From NCBI GenBank assembly GCA_944325545.1, contig CALVAM010000013.1:1-64000 (forward strand): 64,000 nt of DNA. The letters run 5' to 3'. A program made the position numbers and the translations under genes. Positions 1 through 25,430 of this stretch are shown piece by piece (position 1 is the stretch's first letter; each line of letters begins with the position of its first letter). This DNA is from Candidatus Gastranaerophilales bacterium. Lineage in GTDB: Bacteria > Cyanobacteriota > Vampirovibrionia > Gastranaerophilales > Gastranaerophilaceae. Below the pieces are notes generated by a model. The model made no database searches, was not told the origin of the DNA, and was given only the letters and a program-made list of their open reading frames with translations.

Positions 1-26
1 TGAGCCAGGATCAAACTCTCCATTGT
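1..26 (-). rRNA. rrs: 16S rRNA, 5' end only (runs off the left edge)
   Basis: Read on the minus strand, the first bases are the universal 16S start (AGAGTTTGATCCTGGCTCA). By alignment with the E. coli 5' end the mature terminus falls near position 26. Only the tip of the gene is inside the window; the rest lies to the left. Confidence 0.95.
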
Positions 27-152: not shown

Positions 153-293
153 AAGTTTATTTATTTCTTTTAGAACTCTTTTGACTAGTTCAACGGCTTT
201 GTACTAAAACATTTGACTACTTTTTCTTCCTCAAACTGCGACTTAATTATTTATTTCGCTATTTAATACCGGCTTACCGCTGCCAACACCTCT

Positions 294-321
294 ATCATAT
301 ATCGTCAATTTTCTTTGTCAA
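294..321 (-). promoter_or_regulatory. Predicted rRNA promoter P2 (16S-proximal)
   Basis: On the minus strand a perfect -35 TTGACA (316-321) is followed after 16 bp by -10 TATGAT (294-299), predicting transcription from about 287 toward the 16S gene. This is one of the best sigma-70 matches in the window. An HLR1 element sits at 340-357, upstream of it. Confidence 0.65.
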
Positions 322-339
322 CTTCTTCTCTTTTTGCTA

Positions 340-357
340 TTTACATTTCGTTACATT
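340..357 (+). promoter_or_regulatory. HLR1-like direct repeat upstream of rRNA P2
   Basis: TTTACATT-TC-GTTACATT matches the HLR1 consensus (G/T)TTACA(T/A)(T/A)NN(G/T)TTACA(T/A)(T/A) at every defined position. In cyanobacteria HLR1 is bound by the OmpR-type regulator RpaB. It lies about 53-70 bp upstream of the predicted P2 start. Binding by an RpaB homologue here is inference. Confidence 0.55.
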
Positions 358-485
358 CTTAACGATATCGATTTCAATGTCCTTACATAGACTTGCTATG
401 TTTATATTTCGGCATTTTAGATCCCCTTACGAGAAACCTACGTGTAAATCAATTTTCTTTACGCTTTGATTTATCGCGTTCCTTC

Positions 486-514
486 ATTATAAGATGAAAA
501 ATTTTTAAAATCAA
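486..514 (-). promoter_or_regulatory. Predicted rRNA promoter P1 (distal)
   Basis: On the minus strand -35 TTGATT (509-514), a 17-bp spacer and a perfect -10 TATAAT (486-491) predict a start near 479 running toward the 16S gene. An HLR1 element begins 9 bp upstream of the -35 box. Confidence 0.65.
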
Positions 515-522
515 GTTATTTT

Positions 523-540
523 TTTACATTTTTTTACATT
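523..540 (+). promoter_or_regulatory. HLR1-like direct repeat upstream of rRNA P1
   Basis: TTTACATT-TT-TTTACATT is a perfect match to the HLR1 consensus and lies about 44-61 bp upstream of the predicted P1 start. Photosynthetic cyanobacteria are reported to have activating HLR1 sites at about this distance. It also lies just upstream of the divergent small regulator gene at 576. Confidence 0.55.
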
Positions 541-575: not shown

Positions 576-980
576 ATGAAAAGTTTAGCAGAATTTTTAC
601 AAGAAAAAATGGAAAAAGCTGGTCTTTCTATTACTGGGCTTTCAAAAAAATCCAATATTGAATTAGACGTTCTCGAGGACTTAATTTCTGGTAAAGAGCT
701 TTTTCTTTCCGTAACTCAAAGACAACAATTAGCTAAAGTTCTTAAATGCTCTATTAATGAAATAAAAGAACATGAAAAAACTTATGTCTTTGATGACGTT
801 TCTCCTGAAACAATTTCAGAATTGAAAAAACAAATTCTCAATAGAGCCACTAATTTAAAATGTCCTATTTGCGGCGAACCTTTAATTACAAGAATTGCTA
901 AAAACTACGATTTAGATGATAATCTTATTCTTAAGCCCAAAGCTCATTGTGTTAAATGTGTATTCCAAATTAAAGACTAG
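576..980 (+). CDS. Small HTH-like protein with C-terminal four-cysteine zinc-ribbon-like motif
   Basis: A 134-residue protein. Residues 1-65 resemble an XRE/lambda-repressor helix-turn-helix (LSKKSNIELDVLEDLISG, then a helix ending in LAKVLKCSINEI). The C-terminal part has two cysteine pairs, CPIC at 96-99 and CVKC at 125-128, which could bind zinc. It is divergent from the rRNA operon and its 3' end overlaps the convergent ogt gene by 11 nt. No clear Shine-Dalgarno precedes the ATG. A DNA-binding role is inferred from fold resemblance; its targets are unknown. Confidence 0.6.
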   Translation: MKSLAEFLQEKMEKAGLSITGLSKKSNIELDVLEDLISGKELFLSVTQRQQLAKVLKCSINEIKEHEKTYVFDDVSPETISELKKQILNRATNLKCPICGEPLITRIAKNYDLDDNLILKPKAHCVKCVFQIKD

Positions 981-14292: not shown

Positions 14293-14310
14293 AATGTAAA
14301 GTTTTGTAAC
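14293..14310 (-). promoter_or_regulatory. HLR1-like direct repeat upstream of the 14395 gene
   Basis: The minus strand reads GTTACAAA-AC-TTTACATT, a perfect HLR1 match. For the plus-strand gene, a TATACT -10 at 14346-14351 predicts a start near 14358, placing this element at about -65 to -48. The -35 region of that promoter is poor, which fits dependence on an activator. Confidence 0.5.
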
Positions 14311-14394: not shown

Positions 14395-15192
14395 ATGGCT
14401 TTCTTGTTATTATTACATGAAAAAATGAGGCTTCAACGTAACTACAATAAAATGGTGTTACGTAGTTCTCAACTTGCCAACCGCAAGTCAAGAATAGCCA
14501 ATAATATTACTAAAGTACAGAAAATGTACTCTAATAAGATGACTCAACTTGAGCAATCTACTAAGATGCTTCAAAACCAATTCACAATGGGTATTCAAAA
14601 TATGTTTGGTTTGGGTACTCAAAACCAAATGTTCAACCCAATGAATATGGGTGGATATGGTATTACATCATTTGTTGCTAACCAAATGGCTTCTATGCTT
14701 GCAAATGGTGGAAAAGCTATAGAATTACCTGATGGAAAAGGTGGTACACTTTCTACAATATTTGATCAAAATAAATATCAAGCAATGATGACTGAATATA
14801 TGTCAGGAACATTGAAAGAACAAATTGGCGATGATAATAAAGGAACTGGAAAATACGGTGCAAATGGCACATTTGAAAAAGTTGATGTTGATGCTTTCAA
14901 TCAAGCTATGGCAATGGCACAACGACAACAATCTCAAGCTCAAATGATGTGTCAGCAAATGTCATCAAATTATCAAACAAACGTATCAGTTTGGTTAGAA
15001 GCTCAAAAAACACAATTAGAAGCAGAACAAGACGCAGCTTTAGCACCACTAGAAGCAGAACAAACAGATATCGACTTAGAACAAGCAGGATTAGAAACCC
15101 AAATGGCAGATGCAAAAGCAAGACTAGAATCTTTAAAACAAGCTTGCAGCGAAGGAATAAAAGAATCCGCACCGACATTCGGTCTAGGTTAA
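14395..15192 (+). CDS. Unknown coiled-coil protein, Met/Gln-rich
   Basis: 265 residues, not recognised. Residues 1-60 are basic and helical (MAFLLLLHEKMRLQRNYNKM...). Residues ~60-105 are Met/Asn/Gly-rich (GIQNMFGLGTQNQMFNPMNM), and ~180-255 form a Gln/Glu/Ala coiled coil with a repeated L-E-A-[EQ] pattern (LEAQKTQLEAEQ, PLEAEQTD). There is no signal peptide or clear membrane span. A monocistronic unit, with its own HLR1-preceded promoter and a strong terminator at 15221. The GGAG lies about 12 nt before the ATG, farther than usual. It could be a structural or secreted filament-like protein; this is speculation. Confidence 0.6.
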   Translation: MAFLLLLHEKMRLQRNYNKMVLRSSQLANRKSRIANNITKVQKMYSNKMTQLEQSTKMLQNQFTMGIQNMFGLGTQNQMFNPMNMGGYGITSFVANQMASMLANGGKAIELPDGKGGTLSTIFDQNKYQAMMTEYMSGTLKEQIGDDNKGTGKYGANGTFEKVDVDAFNQAMAMAQRQQSQAQMMCQQMSSNYQTNVSVWLEAQKTQLEAEQDAALAPLEAEQTDIDLEQAGLETQMADAKARLESLKQACSEGIKESAPTFGLG

Positions 15193-22069: not shown

Positions 22070-22400
22070 AAAATACTCCCCTTTCAGCTAAGAATAACAT
22101 AAAATAATTAAGATGTTAATTTGTTAATAATAAATTTTATAAAATTAATCTTAAAACAAATAACTGAATTAAAAACATTTTCATATTTACTACATTATGT
22201 TTAAATATTAAGAAATTATAACAGCAACATTACCTAAATTGGAGCTAAAACAAAAAATTAATTAATACTTCTAGAACAGATTTTGAAACATTTAATTGTA
22301 AATTTTTGTAAAAATTTGTATTTATTTATTAAAGTTTTTCATCAAATTAACCGTTTAGAATCCTAAGGAATGTATTTGCGTTGATGAAAGGAGCAATATA
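22070..22400. other. Divergent intergenic region between the ArnT-like and LysM-like genes
   Basis: 331 bp, very AT-rich, with no ORF that has a ribosome-binding site. It contains the HLR1-like element at 22295-22312, a possible -10 TAGAAT (22356-22361) for the plus-strand gene, and the RBS of each flanking gene. I see nothing else. Confidence 0.6.
22295..22312 (-). promoter_or_regulatory. HLR1-like repeat upstream of the 22401 gene
   Basis: The minus strand reads TTTACAAA-AA-TTTACAAT, a perfect HLR1 match. A weaker third unit (AATACAAA, 22317-22324) keeps the same 10-bp phase. If transcription starts near 22368 from TAGAAT, the array spans about -73 to -44. The -35 region is poor. Confidence 0.5.
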
Positions 22401-25400
22401 ATGGGCTATGAATTAAATATTAATGGAAAAACTTATGTTATTAATGAAGGTGACAGCTATAAGGATTTGATAACTAAACATAAGGACTTAAAAAGTCTGG
22501 CACCATTATTTGATTTAATTGATAGTAAAACCGAAGGTGGAGATGGTAAAATCGATAAATCTGAATTAGATTTATTACAAAAAGCTTTGAGTAATTTTAA
22601 AGGTGGTGATTTAAAAGATTATGATGTTGATAAATACACTAATGATTATTTTAAATCAGGTCAAGATAAAACAACATTTTTTAGTTCCAATAAAATAGAA
22701 AAGAAAGAAAATTTATCTGATGATGGAAAAACTTCTCAAAGAGCTTTTAATCAATATATTCAAAATTTAACTAAAAAATATGATAAAGAAGTTTTTACAA
22801 ATCAATTTAATGGAAAGACCGTAAAAATTGCCACTGGTATGACATTATATAAAATTGCCAAACAGGCATTAGAAAATGAAGGGAAAAAGCCAAGACCGCA
22901 AGATATAAATGAAAGAATTGCTCAAATAGTTTTAGTTAATAATATTAAAGACGTAAACAATATAAAATTAGGAACTGAATTAAAGGTTCAATCTGCAAAT
23001 GGAGCAGCTCCTGTGGAAGAAGTAGAGACAACACCACAAAAAGAAGTAACAAAACCTACTACAGATACAGGTAAAAAACAGGATGTAGATAAAGGAACTC
23101 CTGTATATTCTAATGGTGGATATCAAGGCTTAAGCGAAGAAGCTGTAAAAAAATTAAATACACCATCCAGTATAAATATTAAAACTAATACTTTAGTAGG
23201 TACAGAAGAAGCTCTTGCAGATGGTTATACTAAAGTAACTAATGATGGAACAGAAGTTTTTGTTAAAAAATACGCTGATGATGATAGTTTATCTGCCGGA
23301 GTAAATTTATCAGCAGAAACATTAGAAGAAGTAAAAAATAAAACAAAAGCTTTTGATGAAGCTGTTCAAAAAATAAAAGAGGCTGTTCAAGGTGAAACAG
23401 AAGAAGCTGCTAAAACAAGAAAAGAGGCAAACTTACAAGCATTAAAAGAGATTGTCAAGCTTTCTGATGGTAATATTAAAGTAATCGAAAATATTGCAGA
23501 AAAACTCCGTGATGATAATTATGTAGATAGAACATCAGAGGAGTACAAGTCTTTTGTACAAGATTTGTTACTTACAAGAAATGCTGATGTTATAAATTTC
23601 TTATTTAATAATGAAAACGGTACTGTTACAACAGTACTTGAAAAAGATAAGACTGTACATGAGATTTTAGCAGGTATTTATCAAGAAATTCGAACAAAAG
23701 AAAAAGACGGTAAAAAACTAACTGATGAAGAAATTAAGTTAAAAGAAAAAGTATCTAATTTAAAAGTCTATGACGGCTATAAAATTGAAGCAGATAGTAC
23801 AAATGGAGTTCATGAAAAATATATGGACTTCTATAATATGGATGGTATTCCAAGATACGATAGTGACGGCTATGCTGCTAGAGATCCTAAGTTGTTAGAT
23901 ACATTCTTAACAGAACTGGATACTGCTGATACTGATGAAAAGAAAACAGCTTTGTTTAAGAAGTATATTGATACTAAAGACCCGGAATTGGCTAAGTCAC
24001 TTGCTTTTGATGCTATTGAATTAAAAGCAAAAGATGAGGATATAATAGCTCTTATTAATAATAATGGCTTAGAAGTTATTAATTATCTTGATACTGATAT
24101 TGATAACAAAGCTGTAATTGATGCTGTAGTAGCTAAAGCTAAAGAAATCTATACTTCAGATAAAGGTAATCTGGGAAATGCTGTTTATTTAGATTCTGTA
24201 ATGAATTGGATAAATGAAACTGATTTGTCTGATGAAGATAAAGAGAAAGCGAAGAAAGAAATTCTTGAAACTTATTTTGAAGTCACAACAGATAATGATA
24301 GTAATAAAACATACACTTTCAAGCCATCAAGAAAACCTACATATGAAGAAATGGATGGCTTAGTAAGTGATTTTGATGAATTTAAAGAAGCGTTAGTAAA
24401 ATATGTAAATAAGGATGATATGGGCAGAGGTCAATATAATGAAGCTTTAGAATATAGATTAGGTGGAAGGTATATTGTACCACACTATGCTGAAATGGTT
24501 GATAAAATGAATACCAAAGAAGATGTAATTGATTTTATTAATAATAAAGTTGCTAGAGACAAAAATTATCATTTGCCATTTGATAAAATAGTAGAAAAAT
24601 ATCCTGATGATAAAGATATTGCAGATAGATTGGTAAAATTTATTGATGAAAATAGTACAATATCTGATGAGACAAAAACAAAAATTGTTAAACATTATAT
24701 GAAATTTGATGGTAATAATGTTAACTTCGATAAATCTAAGCTTCCTCAAGGGGTTTCTTTAAGAGATTTTGTGGATAAAATATTACCTGAAGATTGCTCT
24801 AAAGGTGATGCCGCAAAATATATTGACGCAATTATTGATTCAATTGATTTTGAGGTTGCAAATACTTCAGCAGAAAATGGCTTTCCTGATTATACTTTTA
24901 AATACTTAATGAATTCACATGTTACTTCTGAAGCAACACAAATAAAAATGGAAGATAAAATTGTTAAATATTTACTTACAGGAAAACCAAGAACTGAATT
25001 ATATAATGATTTGGCAATGTATGCTTTAGAAAATAGATTAATGGGTAACGAACATATGGCATTAGTTTATGATAAGTCATCGCCTACTATGAAAAAGAAT
25101 TTAATAGAAAACGGATATACAAGAAATGGTTCTTTAGTTGTTGTTAATTCAGGTGATAGTATAGATAAAATTGTAAAAAAATACCTAGCTAGTAATTTAG
25201 ATAAATTCCCTCAATTAAAAAAGTCTGTTGAGTCAGATAAAGAGAAATGGACACCAGAGCGAATAGAAGAAGCTCTTAATGACTATATGCAAGATTTTAG
25301 AAATGATATAATGAAAGATTTAGGTATAAGTGACCCTAAAAAATTAAAAGCGAGTGATATCATAGATTTGGGTAAAGTTAACTGGACTGAACATCAGCCA

Positions 25401-25430
25401 AATTGGCTTAATTATACAATTTATTACTAA
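22401..25430 (+). CDS. Large protein with EF-hand-like loop and LysM-like domains
   Basis: 1009 residues; no family recognised for the whole protein. Residues ~36-60 hold an acidic loop of EF-hand type (GGDGKIDKSELDLL). Residues ~136-197 fit a LysM domain (VKIATGMTLYKIAKQAL ... NNIKLGTELKV). The extreme C-terminus (~910-1000) has a second LysM-like stretch (LVVVNSGDSIDKIVKKYL). Between them lie Lys/Glu/Asp-rich helical segments. There is no signal peptide. The RBS AAAGGAG lies before the ATG, and a terminator follows at 25441, so it is monocistronic. A peptidoglycan-binding or surface role is inferred from LysM. Confidence 0.6.
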   Translation: MGYELNINGKTYVINEGDSYKDLITKHKDLKSLAPLFDLIDSKTEGGDGKIDKSELDLLQKALSNFKGGDLKDYDVDKYTNDYFKSGQDKTTFFSSNKIEKKENLSDDGKTSQRAFNQYIQNLTKKYDKEVFTNQFNGKTVKIATGMTLYKIAKQALENEGKKPRPQDINERIAQIVLVNNIKDVNNIKLGTELKVQSANGAAPVEEVETTPQKEVTKPTTDTGKKQDVDKGTPVYSNGGYQGLSEEAVKKLNTPSSINIKTNTLVGTEEALADGYTKVTNDGTEVFVKKYADDDSLSAGVNLSAETLEEVKNKTKAFDEAVQKIKEAVQGETEEAAKTRKEANLQALKEIVKLSDGNIKVIENIAEKLRDDNYVDRTSEEYKSFVQDLLLTRNADVINFLFNNENGTVTTVLEKDKTVHEILAGIYQEIRTKEKDGKKLTDEEIKLKEKVSNLKVYDGYKIEADSTNGVHEKYMDFYNMDGIPRYDSDGYAARDPKLLDTFLTELDTADTDEKKTALFKKYIDTKDPELAKSLAFDAIELKAKDEDIIALINNNGLEVINYLDTDIDNKAVIDAVVAKAKEIYTSDKGNLGNAVYLDSVMNWINETDLSDEDKEKAKKEILETYFEVTTDNDSNKTYTFKPSRKPTYEEMDGLVSDFDEFKEALVKYVNKDDMGRGQYNEALEYRLGGRYIVPHYAEMVDKMNTKEDVIDFINNKVARDKNYHLPFDKIVEKYPDDKDIADRLVKFIDENSTISDETKTKIVKHYMKFDGNNVNFDKSKLPQGVSLRDFVDKILPEDCSKGDAAKYIDAIIDSIDFEVANTSAENGFPDYTFKYLMNSHVTSEATQIKMEDKIVKYLLTGKPRTELYNDLAMYALENRLMGNEHMALVYDKSSPTMKKNLIENGYTRNGSLVVVNSGDSIDKIVKKYLASNLDKFPQLKKSVESDKEKWTPERIEEALNDYMQDFRNDIMKDLGISDPKKLKASDIIDLGKVNWTEHQPNWLNYTIYY

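Follow-up and report, generated by a model that had tools for sequence, protein, structure and literature searches.

We consider it probable that two direct repeats in front of the rRNA genes of a Candidatus Gastranaerophilales bacterium (positions 340-357 and 523-540) are binding sites from which RpaB activates the tandem promoters P1 and P2, and that this element, HLR1, was recruited to growth genes while also serving sigma-28-type and surface-protein promoters. About 50 HLR1s across the genome suggest that growth and cell-surface genes have come under the control of a former light regulator. Homologs of RpaA, RpaB and NblS have been reported in Melainabacteria, with no known role, and the lineage has been described as non-photosynthetic (PMC3787301, PMC4040986); an NblS homolog is on record for other Melainabacteria (Di Rienzi 2013), and for the RpaB and NblS homologs the authors considered another function possible (PMC3787301). 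RpaB and NblS homologs have been on record in this group since 2013 without a role, and a regulon of some 50 exact sites that includes growth machinery offers a concrete and testable answer. No link between RpaB and rRNA promoters was found in the papers searched.

Tandem rRNA promoters and their HLR1 elements

The window, that is the whole stretch of 64,000 nucleotides analysed, corresponds to contig 13 of a 1.82-Mb genome (G+C 29.6%). It opens with a 16S rRNA start in reverse complement; the Rfam 16S model gave no match because the contig end truncates the gene, which was identified by its start sequence instead, and no 16S gene is assembled elsewhere in the genome. The prediction that P1 and P2 drive rRNA rests on this 16S start and on the related genomes. 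The following features were read from the window and, for the promoter region, compared with relatives.

1-17, minus strand: 5' start of the 16S rRNA gene, cut here by the contig end
294-299, minus strand: P2 -10 box TATGAT; relatives mostly have TAAGAT
316-321, minus strand: P2 -35 box TTGACA, 16-bp spacer; kept across the genus
340-357, plus strand: P2 HLR1, TTTACATT-TC-GTTACATT, exact, 18 bp upstream of the -35 box; its repeat reads against the direction of transcription
486-491, minus strand: P1 -10 box TATAAT; conserved
509-514, minus strand: P1 -35 box TTGATT, 17-bp spacer; conserved
523-540, plus strand: P1 HLR1, TTTACATT-TT-TTTACATT, exact, 8 bp upstream of the -35 box
576-980, plus strand: divergent ORF of 134 aa without a family match, a candidate second target for the site at 523-540
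14293-14310, minus strand: third exact HLR1, upstream of a GAAATT...TACTTTATATATA promoter with TACTTTATATATA from 14348
14395-15192, plus strand: ORF of 265 aa downstream of this HLR1, no Pfam match
22295-22312, minus strand: fourth exact HLR1, 18 bp upstream of a sigma-28-like box AAAGTT (about 22331-22355)
22401-25430, plus strand: ORF of 1009 aa downstream of this HLR1, no Pfam match

P1 and P2 are sigma-70-type promoters transcribed on the minus strand, both aimed at the 16S gene. The preliminary description had named their boxes and the two repeats, and every element was recovered to the base, the repeats as exact matches at 8 and 18 bp from the -35 boxes. Both agree without mismatch with the published RpaB site KTTACAWWNNKTTACAWW (PMC13421787), that is with the consensus KTTACAWW-N2-KTTACAWW. 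Counted from the predicted starts they lie at -44 to -61 (P1) and -53 to -70 (P2), to be compared with activation by RpaB at about -45 to -66 and repression at -38 to +23 (PMC13421787). In the mechanism that we propose, an RpaB dimer would occupy each direct repeat on the helix face of RNA polymerase and would aid the start of transcription; both the binding of RpaB and activation rather than repression are inferred. Tandem promoters putatively regulated through HLR1 recall the dual psaAB promoters of Synechocystis, which reportedly carry multiple HLR1s (attributed to Takahashi et al. 2010), with the difference that photosystem I genes are controlled there and rRNA here.

Abundance of HLR1 in the genome

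A scan of both strands over 1.78 of the 1.82 Mb (98%) returned 51 exact HLR1s against about one expected, an enrichment of about 50-fold. Three genomes simulated with a Markov-5 model, which preserves the 6-mer statistics, contained 0, 1 and 2 exact matches, 300 permutations of the half-sites gave a mean of 1.2, and half-site spacings from 0 to 24 other than N2 yielded 0-8 matches each, as opposed to 51 at N2. According to a simple ORF caller, used in place of a published annotation, 49 of the 51 are intergenic although 89% of the genome is coding, and the start codon of the gene overlapping one of the two others is apparently overextended. HLR1 is strongly enriched upstream of genes, contrary to the result that the earlier description had named as refuting (matches no commoner there than in shuffled AT-rich DNA), and the enrichment, together with its restriction to N2, implies that two exact HLR1s within about 200 bp upstream of one gene are not a chance occurrence. 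A search of the window allowing three mismatches gave 154 matches where 148 are expected, the level of chance, so that only exact or near-exact matches are informative; two mismatches gave little signal in the genome. The WalR box of the related WalK-WalR (YycGF) system of Firmicutes is a TGTWAH direct repeat with one base more between the repeats than HLR1; tried as a candidate (TGTWAH-N5-TGTWAH), it was rejected, since half-sites at that spacing occur only twice versus 51 times at N2.

HLR1 at rRNA promoters of related genomes

Within the same genus we examined 30 rRNA operons from 21 genomes, with 59 predicted promoters, 23 of which carry HLR1 with at most one mismatch (15 exact, 8 with one mismatch). 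At these 59 promoters no HLR1 was found in the opposite orientation and spacer-shifted controls reached at most 3; the reversed-pattern control shares one base with true TTTACATT sites, which makes it a poor, conservative one at rRNA promoters. The TTTACA repeat always lies on the strand opposite to transcription. In 22 of the 23 promoters the gap between HLR1 and the -35 box is 8-9, 17-19 or 29 bp, distances that fall on one helix face; related genomes are not independent observations, and no probability was therefore attached to this phasing. The one-turn difference between P1 and P2 that had been pointed out for the window is accordingly general, holding across rRNA and sigma-28-like promoters. 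Compared with relatives, P2 of one genome (G453a) and P1 of two others (G086 and G466) differ by an insertion of 11 bp between HLR1 and the -35 box, with HLR1 kept. As 11 bp amounts to one helical turn, this is the pattern expected from a face-bound activator.

Genomes G086 and G466 also bear on whether the sites might repress rRNA transcription, or whether the 523-540 site might serve the divergent gene at 576, from whose start codon it is only 36 bp away. RpaB does repress from sites overlapping the start, but both HLR1s lie upstream of the -35 boxes without covering it. As for the divergent gene, the flanks of G086 and G466 differ and HLR1 is nevertheless retained, one helical turn farther from P1; the P2 site, moreover, is placed between the two rRNA promoters, and the orientation is always that of rRNA. 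We regard this alternative, in either form, as very improbable.

UP elements of rRNA promoters are A+T-rich and occupy an upstream position comparable to -44 to -70. The repeats could accordingly be UP elements that recruit the RNA polymerase alpha subunit with no regulator involved, a reading with which their position and A+T richness agree, as does the occurrence of nothing but A/T runs at the corresponding position in many other genera. An element of this kind, made of A/T only and lacking a fixed repeat, was rejected as the sole explanation, given that G and C are conserved in a fixed repeat: in the alignment of rRNA promoters the exact 18-bp motif, including its Gs and C, is kept where the flanking sequence diverges. 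The about 50-fold enrichment at N2 spacing only, and the fixed distance of the motif from promoters other than those of rRNA, sigma-28-type ones included, likewise speak against UP elements, to which we give a very slight chance.

Part of the operons of the genus lack HLR1 or have it with two mismatches, and in other genera 14 of 126 rRNA promoters had HLR1 with up to two mismatches versus 9-13 for spacer-shifted controls. Family-wide conservation had been expected and did not show, other genera having no excess over the controls. Lack of conservation at rRNA operons of relatives had been named beforehand as a refuting result; in the genus the element is conserved (23/59 promoters), and HLR1 at rRNA promoters is essentially a trait of this genus.

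HLR1 at other promoters

Exact HLR1s also precede rpsJ, rpoB and a flagellin gene, and copies with one mismatch precede rpsB, rplU, rpsU and rpaB. That before rpaB (G000:C1:114233, in L100) is 23 bp from the start codon and might reflect autoregulation. Of 30 genomes of the genus, 29 retain the rpsJ element (0-1 mismatch). Its gap is 26 bp in 13 of the 29 and 29 bp in 8; the commonest value, 26 bp, is out of phase, so that rpsJ agrees less well with the helical series. Outside the genus the element is mostly absent. With HLR1 at control level at rRNA promoters and mostly missing at rpsJ outside the genus, it looks as if the growth branch had been recruited at the level of the genus.

The remaining targets mostly have no Pfam match. 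HLR1 (0-1 mismatch) precedes 24 sigma-28-like promoters (AAAGTT...GCCGAT), at 17-18 bp in 19, 7 bp in 2 and 28-29 bp in 2 (23 of 24 in total) and never in the opposite orientation, and the genome encodes a sigma factor of the FliA/WhiG family (TIGR02479, 232.8 bits, cutoff 189.6). Sigma-28-type promoters (approximately 24) thus nearly always have HLR1 at 17-18 bp, and many of them precede proteins outside any Pfam family; some of these proteins share an N-terminus (MGMAASQARLL...) or EF-hand-like motifs. At a second promoter type, [CG]AA[AT]TT...ACTTTATATATA, HLR1 is mostly found at 16-17 bp.

The notion of a repurposed growth control is strengthened by the HLR1s at rpsJ, rpoB, rpsB, rplU and rpsU. 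Growth genes nevertheless account for a part of the regulon only, which also takes in many surface and sigma-28 genes. HLR1 would have been recruited in this genus to the growth machinery (rRNA, the S10 operon, rpoB and further ribosomal proteins) and would serve many sigma-28-type and surface-protein promoters as well. With both groups under the same element, a single response regulator would couple growth to motility and surface genes. More tentatively, and as a possibility that we take seriously without calling it probable, the light and redox system may have become a master regulator of growth in gut cyanobacteria that lack photosynthesis, with RpaB driving the genes of rRNA, ribosomal proteins and RNA polymerase and acting, from one helix face, on at least two to three sigma classes, so as to couple growth to motility and surface display, with the growth branch recruited within one genus. 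Such a regulon bears on whether cyanobacterial light regulation arose from an older control of growth or of the envelope, and the 8/18/29-bp series over sigma-70 and sigma-28 promoters offers a natural experiment on how an OmpR-family regulator may activate from one helix face.

About 35 places in the genome (for example C17:4176, C9:49521 and 14348 of the window) share a promoter type that is strongly conserved, GCAATT or GAAATT followed after about 15 bp by TACTTTATATATA, and HLR1 lies upstream of somewhat fewer than half of them. Other TACTTTATATATA-type promoters (for example C3:16877, C2:43940 and C10:5074) carry in the place of HLR1 a 10-bp direct repeat, CTTAATA-TTT-CTTAATA, which may be the box of an OmpR-type paralog.

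RpaB, its paralogs and a candidate kinase

Three OmpR-type regulators are encoded in the genome. As the earlier interpretation required, one of them is RpaB-like: in profile searches it was assigned as the RpaB equivalog (NF045944, 356.5 bits, cutoff 330; gene at L001:964-1746), the two paralogs remaining below the cutoff. In its DNA-binding domain the equivalog shares 71-76% identity with RpaBs from genomes of other families that were taken as photosynthetic on the strength of their family and size, and the DNA-contacting segment DTRVVDVHISRLRSKLE equals that of photosynthetic RpaB except for at most S/A before KLE. The best NblS candidate, a HAMP-PAS-HisKA-HATPase kinase encoded at L105:5412-7274, scored 313.7 bits for NblS (cutoff 1000) and 310.7 for WalK; it is the putative partner of RpaB, and the signal that it would convey is likewise presumed. 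While its kinase thus fits WalK and NblS equally, the system departs from WalK-WalR in its regulator, with 356 bits for RpaB versus 221 for YycF.

In the genus, 12 genomes contained 30-69 exact HLR1s each (561 in total versus 41 for the reversed control), and other genera of the family mostly had fewer, still above their control. Two families of the same class (f4 and f6) had 0-1 per genome, and in f4 and f7 RpaB is present with exact HLR1 nearly absent. RpaB presence and HLR1 counts are hence imperfectly coupled across the phylum. No clear orientation rule emerged from 20 sites of other-family genomes.

It is unlikely, in our estimation, that another OmpR-family regulator of this genome binds the repeats in place of RpaB. 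Two further candidates are indeed encoded, and one genome of family f2 (G285) has 11 exact HLR1s (control 1) with no RpaB over the family cutoff; against this, HLR1 is the published RpaB consensus, both paralogs differ from photosynthetic RpaB in the DNA-contacting segment, which only the equivalog has in that form, and CTTAATA-TTT-CTTAATA is a better candidate box for a paralog.

RpaB as the probable regulator invites comparison with the NblS-RpaB regulon of photosynthetic cyanobacteria, with which the system shares the 18-bp consensus, the half-site spacing, an orthologous RpaB and, from the predicted starts, site positions close to those published for activation. It differs in its host, which is non-photosynthetic, in its targets (rRNA, ribosomal-protein, rpoB, flagellin and surface genes), in a kinase far below the NblS cutoff and in the replacement by Thr of Cys59 of photosynthetic RpaB. 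That residue is the single conserved receiver-domain Cys of photosynthetic RpaB (VCQEL), and the family f1 RpaBs compared have Thr there (VTREI). Judged by RpaB, the nearest relatives that bear a name belong to Candidatus Gastranaerophilales, and several come from the rumen.
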